From a virus, in IMG/VR virus record IMGVR_UViG_3300046524_000347, positions 1 to 24,770 of that record: DNA of 24,770 bases. The stretch is one strand, 5' to 3'. Shown here one piece after another: positions 2,814 to 10,956 of the stretch; position 1 is the stretch's first letter; every line of letters starts with the position of its first letter. A model generated the notes under the pieces. The model was given only the letters and a program-made list of their open reading frames with translations, was not told the origin of the DNA and searched no databases. A program made the translations under genes and the position numbers.

Positions 2814-4043
2814 TTAAGCATTTTCATCTCCCTCCCTAAATCCCAGCATTTTAGACACGATGCCCGCCATGCTCTTGGTGTCTTTTGGTATCCATCTCCC
2901 GTAATGCTTACGCACCATTGTTGTATCGGCATGCCCCAACTGCCTGGCTACCCATTCGACAGGTACGTAGCTCGATAGCATCTGGCTAGCAAAGGTGTGG
3001 CGACACTGGTTTGCCCCACGATGTCTCACCTCTGCCTTTTTTAGGTGTCCTGTGAACCAGTTGCTCAGCGTCTTCCCGCTCCAAAGCAAATTGCTGGTGG
3101 AGCTCCGGAAAAGAAACCTGACTTTCATTTTCTTTGAAGTGATGTTGTCGCGTTGGATAACCGTGATCTCCTCGGCTTGTGCGTCTTTGGCGGCAGCGAC
3201 AATCTCTCTCATGAGTTCGAGGGCAGGGTCTATCAGCTCAATGACCCGTACCCGGGAGCGTTCCTTCGGGACTTTGAACTCGCCCACGACTAACGCACGT
3301 CGAACATGCACCAGGCCGGCTTCAAGGTCGATGTCCTCAACAGCGAGTGCGATGAGTTCGGATAGCGATAGTCCGGCCCAGCAGTTGAACTCAATCATCC
3401 TGGTATCAGGTCGTCTTTCCGGATCTGCTTTGCCGATCAGATCAATCTCGGTGCGACTGAAGGGGTCGGCGTGCTCGAGGTCGACGTCCGAGCCGACGTT
3501 GCTGATTCGATCCAGTGGGTTGGCTTTCAAGATGCCGTCGCCGAAGGCGTCAGCCCAGACGCCTCTGACGACGGTGAAGATATCGTTTACTGTCTTTGGG
3601 GATAGGCCTTGCTTCAGCAGTTGCGCTTGAAAAAGTTCTATATCGCTCTTGCTGATGTCCACGATTCGGCGTTTGCCGAATTTGTTTTCGACGTGCTTGG
3701 CCTTGCTGACGTAGTTAACGACGGTACTTGATGCTTTGAGTGCGCGCTGAACCTCCAGCCATCGATCGATACCTTCTTTCACGGTGCGCTTCAGAGATGG
3801 CCCGCCAATCCCGGTGAACATTGCTGCTCTGGGAGAGTTGGGGAAGTGGGCCGCATAGTCGAAGCGGCCCTCTTTGATCTCTGCAAGGATTGTGCGGCGT
3901 TTGTTGTCGGCGTAGGCAATCGCTGCCTTGTTGACCTTCGAAATACCCTCCAGTGGTTCCCGGCATCGCTGGCCATTGAAGATGAACCAGATGCGTAGCT
4001 GTTTGCCGTTCATCTCGACACCTGTTGGCATCTTGTCACTCAT
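2814..4043 (-). CDS. int: Phage tyrosine-recombinase integrase (DUF3596 arm-binding type)
   Basis: Catalyses site-specific integration and, with excisionase, excision. Predicted 409 residues. Residues 8-35 fit the DUF3596 arm-DNA-binding domain, 85-180 the core-binding domain, and 190-400 the catalytic domain. R348 (in NQCRHTFAS), H371 (in QLGHAD) and nucleophile Y381 (in KHYGRW) are present. Two positions are unusual: the first catalytic arginine position reads GLSLSEL (S226 instead of Arg) and the H of the HxxR box is N345. This variant may be characteristic of the subfamily. ATG 4043 was chosen over GTG 4061 because it overlaps the excisionase stop as ATGA. It is the last gene of the leftward operon and reads towards the tRNA. 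Confidence 0.93.
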   Translation of the reverse strand: MSDKMPTGVEMNGKQLRIWFIFNGQRCREPLEGISKVNKAAIAYADNKRRTILAEIKEGRFDYAAHFPNSPRAAMFTGIGGPSLKRTVKEGIDRWLEVQRALKASSTVVNYVSKAKHVENKFGKRRIVDISKSDIELFQAQLLKQGLSPKTVNDIFTVVRGVWADAFGDGILKANPLDRISNVGSDVDLEHADPFSRTEIDLIGKADPERRPDTRMIEFNCWAGLSLSELIALAVEDIDLEAGLVHVRRALVVGEFKVPKERSRVRVIELIDPALELMREIVAAAKDAQAEEITVIQRDNITSKKMKVRFLFRSSTSNLLWSGKTLSNWFTGHLKKAEVRHRGANQCRHTFASQMLSSYVPVEWVARQLGHADTTMVRKHYGRWIPKDTKSMAGIVSKMLGFREGDENA

Positions 4044-4255
4044 GGTTGACCTGCCATCCACTTTTCAATTGCTTCCTTGTTGTAAACCAGCACATTGGCG
4101 GGGTCGGTTCGGTAGTGCTTGCCCTCAAGCCAAAGTCCGCGAGAGCGATACTTGCGGACTGCTTCTGTGCTGAGTCCAAACACTGGGTAAAGCAAGTCTT
4201 GGCGGAACCAGGCTCCTGGGTTGATGTAGAGATCAATCTTCTCAGCTGCACTCAT
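4040..4255 (-). CDS. xis: Excisionase-like DNA-binding protein
   Basis: Predicted 71 residues, basic, with a winged-helix-like pattern: WFRQDLLYPVFGLSTEAVRKY (helix-turn-helix, about 16-36) followed by GLWLEGKHYRTDPANVLVY and a C-terminal helix. Size, fold pattern and position directly before the integrase fit a phage excisionase that directs recombination towards excision. GGAGGG lies eight bases upstream of ATG 4255. Its stop overlaps the integrase start as ATGA, so translation is probably coupled. Its own start overlaps the stop of the long leftward ORF in the same way. Confidence 0.78.
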   Translation of the reverse strand: MSAAEKIDLYINPGAWFRQDLLYPVFGLSTEAVRKYRSRGLWLEGKHYRTDPANVLVYNKEAIEKWMAGQP

Positions 4256-6597: not shown

Positions 6598-7188
6598 TCA
6601 TGCCGCGTGCGCAGCTGGTGTTGCCGCTGCAGCAAGGTGGTTGATGGACTCGCTGACCTTGCCGTAGATCTCGGCATCGCTGCCGTACACGGTAAAGCAA
6701 CGGGTGTGCGGGCTTTTGTTACCGATGCTCAGGATGGTGGTGACACCTGAGCGAGATTGAGTGCGGTGCAGCGCGACAATTAGCGGGTAGTCGAAACCCA
6801 TGTCGAGGTTCAGCACGCCGCCGGTGCGCACCAGTTCAAACACTCGTTGCTTGTCCGAGACTTCAAAGCGTCCGTATTCGCGGCTGGCGTGAGGGCGTTG
6901 CAGCAGGTCGCTGGTATTGCTCGCATCGAACGGGCCGTTGGCGATCTCTTCGATGAAGTCGGCCAGCTTGAGATGCATCTTCTTTTCGTTATGCAGGGTC
7001 AGTGTGTGGCGTTCGCTGCCCAGCTCCACGACGAAGGTGCTTTCTGAGATGCTACGTTCAACCTTGAGGCGAAACGCCAGACATTCGCGTCTAGGCGCGG
7101 TCCGTAGGACGTGGTTGAAAGTCTCGGTCAGGTTGACCTGAGCATTGAGCAGCTGCAGGGTGCGGTTGTCGATTTTGTACTTGATCAT
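6598..7188 (-). CDS. Conserved phage protein of unknown function
   Basis: Predicted 196 residues, no membrane segment. The N-terminal part appears beta-rich with alternating charged residues (CLAFRLKVERSISESTFVVE, HTLTLHNEKKMHLKL), followed by a helix (ADFIEEIANG) and a C-terminal region with FDYPLIVALHRTQSRSGVTT. I do not recognise a family. ATG 7188 overlaps the stop of the preceding gene as ATGA. It is the second gene of the leftward operon, so it should be expressed early. Confidence 0.7.
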   Translation of the reverse strand: MIKYKIDNRTLQLLNAQVNLTETFNHVLRTAPRRECLAFRLKVERSISESTFVVELGSERHTLTLHNEKKMHLKLADFIEEIANGPFDASNTSDLLQRPHASREYGRFEVSDKQRVFELVRTGGVLNLDMGFDYPLIVALHRTQSRSGVTTILSIGNKSPHTRCFTVYGSDAEIYGKVSESINHLAAAATPAAHAA

Positions 7189-7361
7189 GCTGCATGCCCT
7201 CCGCCGTTCGGATTGACTGGGGCAGGAGTGGTGCGTGCTGTCAGCTTCGGTTTGGTGATGGCGAACGCGCAGCCGTACTCGCGGGCTAGTCGCCGGATCT
7301 CAAAGATTTGGAAGGGGTTGGTAGCGGCCGGGTGGACGTGCAGGGTTGCTGTGGTGTTCAT
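7185..7361 (-). CDS. Small protein, first gene of leftward operon
   Basis: Predicted 58 residues from ATG 7361, with GAGG six bases upstream. Contains FQIFEIRRLAREYGCAFAIT, a possible DNA-binding-like helix pair, and a proline-rich tail. It is the first gene after the leftward promoter at 7396-7424 and overlaps the next gene as ATGA. Function unknown. Confidence 0.65.
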   Translation of the reverse strand: MNTTATLHVHPAATNPFQIFEIRRLAREYGCAFAITKPKLTARTTPAPVNPNGGGHAA

Positions 7362-7395: not shown

Positions 7396-7424
7396 AATAT
7401 CAACTGTAGGTTGATTATTGTCAA
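7396..7424 (-). promoter_or_regulatory. Leftward early promoter (PL)
   Basis: On the minus strand TTGACA (7424-7419) is followed by a 17-base spacer and GATATT (7401-7396). The operator at 7399-7415 covers the -10 box and most of the spacer, so bound repressor would block it. It drives 7361 leftward to the integrase. Confidence 0.7.
7399..7415. promoter_or_regulatory. Left operator 1
   Basis: ATCAACTGTAGGTTGAT is a perfect six-base dyad (ATCAAC / GTTGAT) with five central bases. The same dyad occurs at 9815-9831 next to the rightward promoter. Probable site for the repressor at 9035-9766 and/or the Cro-like protein. Confidence 0.7.
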
Positions 7425-7438
7425 CAGCTACAGGTTGA
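7421..7438. promoter_or_regulatory. Left operator 2, degenerate
   Basis: TCAAC (7421-7425) and GTTGA (7434-7438) repeat the half-sites of the neighbouring operator with an eight-base gap. It lies over the -35 box of the leftward promoter. Confidence 0.45.
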
Positions 7439-7460
7439 TAATTTTGCGTTTCGTGATGGC

Positions 7461-7483
7461 GCCTTGACATGTCTACTCAAGGC
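7461..7483. promoter_or_regulatory. Dyad overlapping the reverse-transcriptase promoter
   Basis: GCCTTGA (7461-7467) and TCAAGGC (7477-7483) are perfect complements with a nine-base gap. The dyad covers the -35 box and spacer of the promoter at 7464-7491. Its sequence differs from the phage operators, so any protein bound here would be a different one. Confidence 0.45.
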
Positions 7484-7491
7484 TCTACATT
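7464..7491 (+). promoter_or_regulatory. Promoter of the reverse-transcriptase gene
   Basis: TTGACA (7464-7469), a 16-base spacer and TACATT (7486-7491) give a good sigma70-like promoter 37 bases before the ATG at 7528. It lies beyond the phage operators, so the gene should be expressed in the lysogen. Confidence 0.6.
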
Positions 7492-7527
7492 GCCGGTTAC
7501 ACCAATTTGTCGCGCATGGGGGAACGG

Positions 7528-9024
7528 ATGTCGAAGACCGCTGATTTTTATGAAAAGGACTTTTGGTCTGGGCTATTTCCAATGCAAACAAATTTGCTAA
7601 TGATCACAAGAAAGGAAAAAGAGCTCTCTGAATATGTCTATCAGAAAGTCTTATCCACTGATGAGCAACATAATTTTATCCCCCAGCAACGGGTATACGC
7701 CGATAAATCTAACGGCCATTTGCGTAGAACGCTGAAGCTCGATCCGGTGGCAGAATATTTCCTTTATGACGTGGTGTACAGGAATCGTTCAATTTTTAGG
7801 AAGCCGTTTTCTGAGAGTAGAAAGTCCTATGGCTACAGGTTTGAAAGTGGTGAGGTTGTTCCAATTAGTCAGGCGTACAAGAGTTATAGGCAAGACGTGA
7901 CAGATAATTTGGGGAAGTTTAAGCATCACCTCAGTTTTGATATAGCGGGATTTTTTAATAGCGTTTACCACCACGATCTCTCTCATTGGTTTTCATCCTC
8001 TGAAAGTGTAACTGATAAAGATAATGAGGCTCTTGGTAAGTTTTTTCGGGAAATTAACTCTGGTCGGAGTGTTGATTTTCTGCCTCATGGCCTATATCCA
8101 TCGAAAATGATTGGCAGTGATTTTCTAAAATTTACCGAGCAGTCAGGTCAGCTTAAGAGCTCGGTGCTTTTAAGGTTTATGGATGACTACCATCTATTTG
8201 ATGACGATGAAAACAACATAAAAAGAGATTTTATTAGAATTCAAAAGATGCTGGGTGACAAAGGATTGAATGTAAATCCACAGAAGACTAGGAAGAGTGT
8301 TCAAGATGTGCAAGAGGAGGTTTCAGCGATCCGGCAAGAACTATATGAGATAGTTGAGATTGAAGTAGGAGTCTCTATTTGGGGGTCTGGGGTCGAGGTG
8401 CCAGAGATGGAGGAAATCCAGATCATCACGGACTTATCAGCTGATCAGATTAATCGCCTTCTCGCTTTTCTAAAAGAAGACTCTTTGGATGATCATGATG
8501 CTGAGTTTATACTCAATGTCCTTAGATACTATTCTACCGATGTTAATGACTATTTGCCTGTGCTTCTTGAACGTTTCCCAAGCCTCACGAAAAGTATATT
8601 CACAATGTTCAATAATAAAAGTACTGTTCAGGGGGAGGATGACAAATTAGCCGATGTTGTTCATAGCTTCTTGAAGGTTGCTGATCATTTATCCGAGTTT
8701 CAAATATTTTGGCTGGCTGTTTTGGCTGAAAATAAACTATCAAACACTCGGCTGTATGGAGAGATTCTGAATTTGTTGTACAACTGTTCCTCTGGGAGCA
8801 CCATTGCGCGATCCAAGATATTAGAGATACCGACCCAGAAGTTTGGGATGAAAGAGTTGCGTGAGGAGCACTTGAAGAATGGTAGCTCTGACTGGTTGTC
8901 GTGGGCTTCTGCTATGGGAAGTAGGACGCTAAAGAAAGCAGAAAGGAATTACGTTCTGGACTATTTTTCAAAGGGTTCATCATTGAATTATTTAATATCC
9001 TCTTGCGTAAAGGATATGGACTGA
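7528..9024 (+). CDS. Reverse transcriptase, probable antiphage (DRT/Abi-like)
   Basis: Predicted 498 residues. The palm motifs are visible in order: motif A FDIAGFFNSVYHHDL (137-151, D138), motif B LPHGLYPSKMIGSDFL (185-200), motif C RFMDDY (216-221, D219 and D220) and motif D KGLNVNPQKTRK (245-256). All three catalytic aspartates are present. About 240 further residues form a helical C-terminal region, as in defence-associated UG/Abi reverse transcriptases; there is no intron maturase or retron-like layout. Subclass not assigned. ATG 7528 was chosen because GGGGG lies five bases upstream. The gene is AT-rich compared with the phage core. It has its own promoter and converges on the repressor gene with ten bases between the stops. 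Position and family suggest protection of the lysogen against other phages. Confidence 0.85.
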   Translation: MSKTADFYEKDFWSGLFPMQTNLLMITRKEKELSEYVYQKVLSTDEQHNFIPQQRVYADKSNGHLRRTLKLDPVAEYFLYDVVYRNRSIFRKPFSESRKSYGYRFESGEVVPISQAYKSYRQDVTDNLGKFKHHLSFDIAGFFNSVYHHDLSHWFSSSESVTDKDNEALGKFFREINSGRSVDFLPHGLYPSKMIGSDFLKFTEQSGQLKSSVLLRFMDDYHLFDDDENNIKRDFIRIQKMLGDKGLNVNPQKTRKSVQDVQEEVSAIRQELYEIVEIEVGVSIWGSGVEVPEMEEIQIITDLSADQINRLLAFLKEDSLDDHDAEFILNVLRYYSTDVNDYLPVLLERFPSLTKSIFTMFNNKSTVQGEDDKLADVVHSFLKVADHLSEFQIFWLAVLAENKLSNTRLYGEILNLLYNCSSGSTIARSKILEIPTQKFGMKELREEHLKNGSSDWLSWASAMGSRTLKKAERNYVLDYFSKGSSLNYLISSCVKDMD

Positions 9025-9034
9025 GTAAAGGCTG

Positions 9035-9766
9035 TTACTCGGGAAGGAATGTGCCGACTACTTTTCCGCAAATATGAGTTTCTTCTGTAATTTCAATTAT
9101 CGGGTATTGTGGATTGATGGGCCTGAGAAATTGCCGGCCCGCGTCCTCTACCAGTATTTTGAAAGTCGCTTCGTTTGTACGAGGGACTCGAGCGATTACT
9201 CTGTCACCGGTTTTGGTTTCTGCTTCGGGGTCTACGAAAATAATGCACCCGGTTGGATAGCTGCGACCGGGTCCCGGATTCGTCATCGAATCCCCGAGAA
9301 CCTTCAAAGCGTATCCATGGTTGCTTATCGGAACCGGGCACGACAGCCAAGAATCTGCATCGTATGCCTCAAAGTTAGAGATCGCCTCACACCAAGCCCC
9401 GGCTTGAACCCACGAAATCAGCGGCACTTTGCCAAAACGCTGATTTATTTCACTGACATTGGTACCCTCGCCAACGGCAATTTGCCGAACGTTACTCTCT
9501 CCAGTTTGCTGTTTCGGCAGCACCCCGTATTCAAGCCACTCCCGTCTTACCTTCAGCCATGAGCAAAGGGCCGACATACTGTCTGCCTCAGCCATTGCTT
9601 CGCCATTCAGCCACTTGCTGATGGCCTGGGTCGTTTTATCAACACCCACGCTTTTCAACTGACGATGAATATCCACTCCACGACCCCGGCTGCGTACGCC
9701 GGCATCGTCGAGGGCTTCGTGTAGGCGCTCGCTGAACGCTGCGCGGAGAGAATTTTTATCAACCAT
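9035..9766 (-). CDS. cI: CI/LexA-type prophage repressor
   Basis: Predicted 243 residues. The N-terminal 80 residues hold a helix-turn-helix (about 34-55, with TTQAISKWLNGE). The C-terminal half is a peptidase S24 domain with nucleophile S160 (in GDSM) and K203 (in ATFKIL). A cleavage site AG at 122-123 (WVQAGAW) fits RecA-stimulated self-cleavage, so DNA damage should induce the prophage. No strong ribosome binding site precedes ATG 9766. It is divergent from the Cro-like gene, and the operators at 7399-7415 and 9815-9831 are its likely targets. Related in layout to PrtR and other Pseudomonas phage repressors. Confidence 0.93.
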   Translation of the reverse strand: MVDKNSLRAAFSERLHEALDDAGVRSRGRGVDIHRQLKSVGVDKTTQAISKWLNGEAMAEADSMSALCSWLKVRREWLEYGVLPKQQTGESNVRQIAVGEGTNVSEINQRFGKVPLISWVQAGAWCEAISNFEAYDADSWLSCPVPISNHGYALKVLGDSMTNPGPGRSYPTGCIIFVDPEAETKTGDRVIARVPRTNEATFKILVEDAGRQFLRPINPQYPIIEITEETHICGKVVGTFLPE

Positions 9767-9787
9767 GAGTTGAGAGTCTCATAAAGG

Positions 9788-9814: not shown

Positions 9815-9831
9815 ATCAACCGTAAGTTGAT
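9802..9831. promoter_or_regulatory. Right operator region
   Basis: ATCAACCGTAAGTTGAT (9815-9831) is the same six-base dyad as the left operator. A further GTTGAT half-site lies at 9802-9807. Binding would control both the Cro-like gene and the repressor gene, which diverge here. Confidence 0.7.
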
Positions 9832-9845
9832 AAATGGAGGTTGTC

Positions 9846-10106
9846 ATGTTGGACCCCGCAGATTTTCCGAGCGCGATTGCGTTTGCGTTTGAAGCCGTTG
9901 GCGGCATCGGGGCCGCTGCGAAGGTATGCAACAGAAGCTACCAAGCGCTGAACAAATGGCGTCAGGCTGCATGCCTGCCGCGAACGGATTACACAGGCGA
10001 AACCAAATACGCCGAGCTGTTGGCAATTGCTGCGAAGCAGAAAGGCAACGCATTCCAAGCGGCTTGGCTGTTGAACGCTTCGGCTCCACAAAAAGCTGCA
10101 GCGTAG
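9846..10106 (+). CDS. cro: Cro/YdaS-like regulator
   Basis: Predicted 86 residues. A helix-turn-helix is visible in IGAAAKVCNRSYQALNKWRQ (about 25-44), typical of Cro/YdaS-type proteins that oppose the repressor. ATG 9846 has GGAGG five bases upstream; ATG 9834 is in frame but would put its own ribosome binding site inside the gene. Divergent from the repressor gene and followed by a long structured gap. Confidence 0.82.
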   Translation: MLDPADFPSAIAFAFEAVGGIGAAAKVCNRSYQALNKWRQAACLPRTDYTGETKYAELLAIAAKQKGNAFQAAWLLNASAPQKAAA

Positions 10107-10437
10107 TCAGAAAAAAGGCGACCCAAAGGTCGCCCAGTTTCTCCCGGCACGCACCACCACAGCGCTGTCGGGTCGCGATAAAGATAGGCGGGCACACCAC
10201 ATGCAACCACCTCTCTTTATCGCGCTTTTCCAAGGCTCGGAAGCCTTGGTGTTGCTGCCTCTTCCACCACAGATTTGGCAGCTGTTGCGCCAGAGGTGAG
10301 CAATGGATTGCTCGCCCCGGCACGGTGCCGGTATCGATCCCGAAGATCTAGCCGGCGTTTGGGCCCTTTCAAGCCACGCGGCAAATGTATCACCACTGCA
10401 TGTCGCGCGGCACTGGCAACTTACAAGGATTAATGCC
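10107..10437. other. Structured gap between cro and cII, possible antisense RNA
   Basis: No convincing gene in 330 bases. It holds an 11-base inverted repeat CGCGATAAAGA (10174-10184) / TCTTTATCGCG (10214-10224), a perfect hairpin CCAAGGCT-CGGA-AGCCTTGG (10230-10249), and at its left end a terminator that works on the minus strand. This fits either a long structured leader before cII or a small leftward RNA ending at 10111. No promoter was identified with confidence. Confidence 0.4.
10111..10134 (-). terminator. Terminator on the minus strand after cro
   Basis: GGCGACC (10117-10123) pairs with GGTCGCC (10128-10134) with a four-base loop. On the minus strand the hairpin is followed by six T, a canonical rho-independent terminator; on the plus strand the T tract is weak. 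It would stop leftward transcription entering cro. Confidence 0.6.
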
Positions 10438-10956
10438 ATGAGCCGTATCGCTCTGAGTTCTGTTGAGCGGGCGCAGCGGGAAGTTTTGCCGCTCGATCTC
10501 GCGCTTTACCATGCCGCTCGGGACTACCCCGGCGGCGCCGCAGCCATCGCCGCCACTACTGGCCGAAATGCGACCACGCTGCAGCACAAGCTGTCCCCAA
10601 CCCACCCCAGCCACGCGGTGAACATTCAAGAGTTCGGCGAGATTCTGGAACTGACCAAGGATCGCCGCATTCTGGATGCAGTGCATGCCTTGGTAGGTGA
10701 CACGACTTGGCAGGAGCTGGCTGAGGCGTACACCAACGATATGCCCGAGACGTTGACCACCGGGATAGCCGAGTACTTCCGGCAGGTCGCGGATCTGGCG
10801 GATACCTGGGCCAAGAGCATTGGCGACGGAGTTGTTTCCGATGAGGAACTTGCCGCGATTCGCCTGCAGGTTTTTCGAGGCATTCAAGGGTTGCTGGGAT
10901 TGTTCAACCGCGCCACCTACGTCAATCAAACGACGCGGGGTACTGATCGTGGTTGA
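10438..10956 (+). CDS. CII-like regulator (Phage_CP76 family)
   Basis: Predicted 172 residues. Residues 17-90 follow the Phage_CP76/CII pattern: LPLDLALYHAARDYPGG, then IAATTGRNATTLQHKLSPTH, then INIQEF-like and a helix. Such proteins regulate the choice between lysis and lysogeny. ATG 10438 has AAGGA eight bases upstream. It overlaps the next gene by eight bases. Confidence 0.8.
   Translation: MSRIALSSVERAQREVLPLDLALYHAARDYPGGAAAIAATTGRNATTLQHKLSPTHPSHAVNIQEFGEILELTKDRRILDAVHALVGDTTWQELAEAYTNDMPETLTTGIAEYFRQVADLADTWAKSIGDGVVSDEELAAIRLQVFRGIQGLLGLFNRATYVNQTTRGTDRG

Follow-up and report, generated by a model that had tools for sequence, protein, structure and literature searches.

DRT2, DRT9 and DRT10 are class 2 reverse transcriptases (RTs) of the UG type, which use a cis-encoded non-coding RNA (ncRNA) as their template. 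The class 1 UG RTs are characterized by the combination of an RT with a helical-repeat (alphaRep) domain and, where studied, catalyze synthesis without a template (PMC13174585), with AbiK being both protein-primed and untemplated and AbiA likewise untemplated (PMC11077055). Phage resistance has been reported for the DRT5 family (PMC7699616), whereas a 2026 review regards its biochemistry as not established (PMC13213688). A further 2026 paper presents template-free, protein-primed synthesis by enzymes termed "DRT5S" and "DRT5L" and places them in class 3 along with the nitrilase/phosphohydrolase RTs (PMC13275509); an RT of unknown group 5 (UG5) with a nitrilase domain has also been described (PMC9122126). 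These "DRT5S/DRT5L" may be UG5 enzymes rather than members of UG16, for which reason we set that paper aside as direct support.

Defense genes are also known from sites adjoining the CI-type repressors of prophages. The rexAB genes of lambda are co-transcribed with cI. The RexABpp system of Pseudomonas putida comparably lies downstream of a CI-like repressor (PMC12894663), and hotspots, in which conserved phage genes flank varied defense genes, have been described in P2 and P4, plus one between cI and the integrase in Vibrionaceae prophages, which thus adjoins the repressor (Rousset et al., PMC9122126).

DRT5 in a temperate, Pseudomonas-associated phage

The window analyzed here comes from IMG/VR as a virus record 24,770 bases long. 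The phage belongs to a temperate, Pseudomonas-associated family and is a prophage integrated at tRNA-Ser: a tRNA-Ser(cga) detected with ARAGORN at the left end (7–96, +) is the probable attachment site, and a tyrosine integrase (PF00589, PF12167) is encoded at 2814–4061 (−). Further along are a 243 aa repressor of the S24 peptidase type (CI/LexA-like; 9035–9766, −; Pfam PF00717, E 3.9e-24; phrog_4, transcriptional repressor), a Cro-like regulator (9834–10106, +; phrog_35) and a CII-like activator (10303–10956, +; phrog_101). Together with the tRNA-Ser at the left edge and the integrase, these genes identify an immunity region. Hence, the original prediction was correct in locating the RT gene in such a region beside a real repressor gene and in calling it AT-rich, with a GC fraction of about 0.41 as compared to about 0.60 for most of the prophage. 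Between the tRNA-Ser and the integrase, three adjoining low-GC genes (629–2678, +; 266, 217 and 192 aa) matched nothing in Pfam, PHROGs or PADLOC and have no relatives among the related prophage loci; a scan of viral contigs with the 266 aa gene likewise yielded none. This trio is possibly a second cargo site.

The RT gene, hereinafter drt5 (7528–9024, +), is an intact frame open throughout its length that codes for 498 aa. While an alternative in-frame TTG start lies upstream at 7507, the conserved N-terminus MSKTxDFY begins at the ATG at 7528. The palm motifs are complete, as had been read from the sequence: motif A is FDIAGFFNSVY with D138, motif C is RFMDDY with the correctly numbered D219/D220, and both D138 and R216-F217-M218-D219-D220 are invariant across the 54 homologues compared. 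Thus, the predicted catalytic residues D138, D219 and D220 are all intact.

The protein is a DRT5 (UG16) RT, a known subclass. It matches the NCBIfam Drt5 equivalog NF041750 over residues 7–495 with 639.4 bits against a curated cut-off of 550, scores up to 678 bits with the PADLOC Drt5 models as compared to 110 for the next-best family, Drt8, and shows 49% identity over 500 positions to an annotated Drt5 from E. coli, with which it also shares motifs and length. The two differ in their setting, the E. coli copy examined lying beside a chromosomal relaxase gene and that of the window in the immunity region of a prophage. Homologues were gathered from 58 bacterial loci across several phyla, three viral contigs and four plasmids, the last being all the plasmid matches to DRT5; a search of 50,697 phage records returned no DRT5 match. 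In a tree that also included Drt4, Drt8, a retron and further RTs, the DRT5 sequences all fall into one clade (support 97/96), inside which the window protein groups with those of two other prophages, L058 and L067 (99/94); the deep branches were flagged as unreliable, and the DRT families are not ordered from them. The recognition of a UG/Abi-type antiphage RT is therefore upheld by both profile and phylogeny, while the suggestion that its subclass was unresolved and perhaps new is ruled out by the same equivalog score and tree placement. DRT5 is rare in the genus, as only one of 299 Pseudomonas genomes, the one holding L058, has a protein over the cut-off. Another phage-borne drt5, 72% identical, is found outside this type of site (L068:5065–11503) on a contig that also has genes for a portal-like protein and a 592 aa ATPase.

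An AlphaFold model built on a 51-row alignment, from which three rows from plasmid records were left out, has a mean pLDDT of 85.3 and a pTM of 0.88. It displays an RT domain at about residues 1–261, a low-confidence linker at 277–300 and a dozen helices at about 305–495, in agreement with the long helical C-terminal region anticipated earlier. Compared with solved structures, the model aligns along nearly its whole chain to DRT6 (9wy8; Z 21.5, 448 residues), DRT4 (9vdo; Z 19.5, 434 residues) and AbiK (7z0z; Z 16.7, 443 residues), with further near whole-chain matches to UG15, AbiA and Abi-P2. In contrast, group II, retron, DGR, R2, DRT9 and DRT2 structures match the model essentially across the RT domain. 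The fusion of an RT to a helical-repeat domain in the predicted model is that by which class 1 is recognized, pointing to a class 1 architecture for the window DRT5, namely an RT palm followed by an alphaRep-like C-terminal domain. While this whole-chain organization is common to DRT6, DRT4 (UG15) and AbiK, sequence identity to them in the structural alignments is only about 11–17%, and the families are separate.

The cargo slot between the left operators and the repressor gene

The palindrome ATCAAC-N5-GTTGAT, which resembles an operator, occurs at 7399–7415 and 9815–9831, with weaker copies at 7423–7439 and 9758–9774; the search gave nine matches, counting both strands, against 0.78 expected. 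We interpret 7399–7439 as the putative left operators and 9815–9831, which lies between the repressor and the Cro-like gene, as a putative right operator, the further copy at 9758–9774 being at the start of the repressor gene. A leftward promoter-like sequence (TTGACA at 7424 to GATATT at 7396, −) overlaps the left operators. Leftward of these lie a 58 aa gene read from its ORF (7185–7361, −) and the gene for a conserved 196 aa phage protein (6598–7188, −; phrog_15582). In the other direction, beyond the left operators, a candidate drt5 promoter, TTGACA-N16-TACATT (7464–7491, +), leaves a leader of some 30 nt before the ATG. Although a scan of the region for sigma-70 promoters is by itself not significant (four found against 4.2 expected), L058 and L067 have a counterpart, TTGACA-N16-TAGATT, at the identical position and with the identical spacing. 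The earlier proposal of a promoter outside the operators thus finds support at the level of a promoter-like sequence, and given its location and conserved position drt5 is likely to be free of direct operator control.

The drt5 and repressor genes are convergent, being on opposite strands with their stop codons 10 bp apart. The original prediction had termed the position rex-like, which holds for the neighborhood, as drt5, like the lambda RexAB and the P. putida RexABpp genes, adjoins a CI-type prophage repressor. It does not hold for the orientation: those genes are downstream of the repressor and codirectional with it, whereas drt5 occupies the other strand, has a promoter-like sequence of its own, forms no single operon with the repressor and belongs to another protein family. 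Thus, it does not constitute a Rex-type exclusion operon, which would be placed downstream of the repressor and in the same direction.

A variable cargo slot occupies 7440–9034, with the left operators at one end and the stop of the repressor gene at the other. Defining the slot by its flanks, the repressor and the 196 aa neighbor, we collected 90 distinct slot sequences from IMG/VR and a P. fluorescens locus, the window included. Eight of these are empty (275–287 bp), while 75 contain a large ORF (at least 180 aa), which together fall into 40 cargo types; in 70 of the 75 the cargo runs opposite to the repressor. In a PADLOC scan at 1e-5, 16 of 30 cargo representatives matched defense models, some of them partially, including Septu PtuA and PtuB, a CBASS cyclase, a retron type VI RT, Lamassu LmuB, NsnB/HEC-03 and several candidate systems. 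None of ten window genes outside the slot did so (Fisher p 0.0023), this control being a small set from one phage. Some of the cargos without a PADLOC match carry NACHT, AAA, DUF4062 or DUF2806 domains.

The cargo has been exchanged independently of the phage backbone: repressors 92–94% identical to that of the window accompany CBASS or Septu cargo, whereas those of the other two DRT5 slots are just 81–82% identical to it. Among the slots listed, operator-like palindromes occur at a similar distance from the 196 aa gene, and the sequence beyond them is cargo-specific. With the same flanks, many unrelated cargos, empty sites and an enrichment of defense genes, the slot is a prophage defense hotspot, a kind of site already known. 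As in the P2-like, P4-like and Vibrionaceae hotspots, conserved phage genes flank varied defense genes; however, it belongs to another phage family and is bounded by the left operators and the 3′ end of the repressor gene, with cargo converging on the latter. A description of this exact site was not found in the literature searched, of which the coverage was partial, and it appears to be a further, new instance of such hotspots. The window enzyme is accordingly a further member of the known DRT5 family, real and intact, in a prophage defense hotspot.

Several slots present features of their own. A set with TTAACC-type palindromes (among L150–L229) has the same 196 aa neighbor, a repressor only about 31–37% identical to that of the window and a differing operator palindrome in the same place, suggesting that repressor and operators were replaced together while the slot was retained. 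The retron type VI RT (L189:3780–4865) fills the slot of a related prophage with a repressor of a different type. A family of about 600–635 aa proteins fills six slots (L210, L147, L117, L120, L096 and L097); the member scanned, that of L210, matched no PADLOC model but carries a NACHT domain, and the family is a candidate defense gene. Five occupied slots of 1.4–1.6 kb (L078, L086, L104, L119 and L122) have no ORF of at least 110 aa, and their cargo may be decayed or misassembled.

Competing explanations for the RT cassette

The capture of a retron or group II intron RT by the phage would account for the shared RT palm and for weak matches to the respective profiles, but these are far under the cut-offs (18.6 bits against 235 for retron St85 and 29 against 300 for the group II maturase), the whole-chain structural matches go to class 1 UG/Abi enzymes, and an Rfam scan found neither an msr-msd nor an intron RNA. 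Both identities are rejected on these profile scores and the missing RNA, and we regard such an origin as scarcely credible. An RNA-templated, class 2-like DRT with a cis-encoded ncRNA, comparable to DRT2, DRT9 and DRT10, could be argued for in that the RT domain by itself aligns with DRT9 and DRT2 and an RNA may be concealed inside the ORF, on the opposite strand or antisense to the repressor. Against this, the ORF leaves no adjoining space for such a gene, with about 90 nt of non-coding DNA from the operators to the ATG and 10 nt separating the two stops; in Phaeobacter drt5 even begins within the end of the ATPase gene ahead of it. DNA similarity in the DRT5 flanks, of which 63 upstream and 64 downstream ones were compared, is confined to close relatives or shared backbones, the exception being two short, weak downstream matches, and the two Rfam matches near drt5 are far below their gathering scores and both within the ORF. 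These sub-threshold matches and the lack of conservation in the flanks of divergent loci argue against a flanking ncRNA gene and, with the scant space, make a cis-encoded partner unlikely from the genomic comparison. As the C-terminal domain also resembles those of class 1 enzymes, we consider an RNA-templated mode improbable, if the least so of the alternatives.

A different role would have the RT cassette act on the genetic switch of the prophage, such as through antisense transcription running convergently into the repressor gene, instead of or besides excluding phages. The gap of 10 bp between the stops, in which no terminator-like site was found, and the prevailing convergent orientation of the slot cargos are compatible with it. 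However, the cargo is unrelated between phages and often of a known defense type, and empty slots exist, which implies that the switch depends on no particular cargo gene; accordingly, we hold this role to be decidedly improbable. That drt5 is a decayed passenger with no present function could be argued from its scarcity in the genus, but the intact ORF and catalytic residues, along with two further prophages of this type in which close relatives at 79% identity have stayed intact, leave this reading very little probability.

Proposed function and wider meaning

Taken as a whole, we think it quite probable that drt5 is single-gene antiphage cargo of a temperate phage, expressed in the lysogen, the class 1 product of which stops infection by untemplated synthesis of single-stranded DNA. 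The analysis establishes the family, the intact catalytic residues, the architecture in the model, the lack of any normally sized ncRNA gene in the flanks, the location and the exchange of cargo, whereas the expression, the untemplated synthesis, the trigger and the outcome are inferred. As part of a cassette open to exchange, with the left operators on one side and the repressor gene on the other, drt5 would probably be expressed in the lysogen, as suggested by the promoter-like sequence outside the operators, and would shield the host, and thereby the prophage, from other phages. By analogy to the untemplated synthesis of the class 1 enzymes, with which it shares the predicted architecture, DRT5 should most likely make single-stranded DNA that copies no nucleic acid, and one of the enzyme's own hydroxyl residues would probably serve as primer; conserved hydroxyls in the protein include Y80, Y147, S181, T68, Y479 and S484. 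Infection may trigger or stabilize this synthesis, which would then stop the infection, probably with the loss of the infected cell.

The implications extend to the DRT5 family and to the phages carrying the slot. The grouping of the predicted DRT5 fold with DRT4, DRT6 and AbiK offers a direct biochemical prediction for the enzyme, and the compact cassette argues for DRT5 working without a cis-encoded RNA. With regard to the slot, we lean slightly towards the view that the stretch between left operators and repressor in this phage family serves specifically for the exchange of antiphage cassettes with their own promoters and that many of its undescribed cargos, which make up about half of the types scanned, would be new defense systems. 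With 75 natural cassettes of 40 types at one site, it represents a compact and easily cloned source of candidate defense systems.
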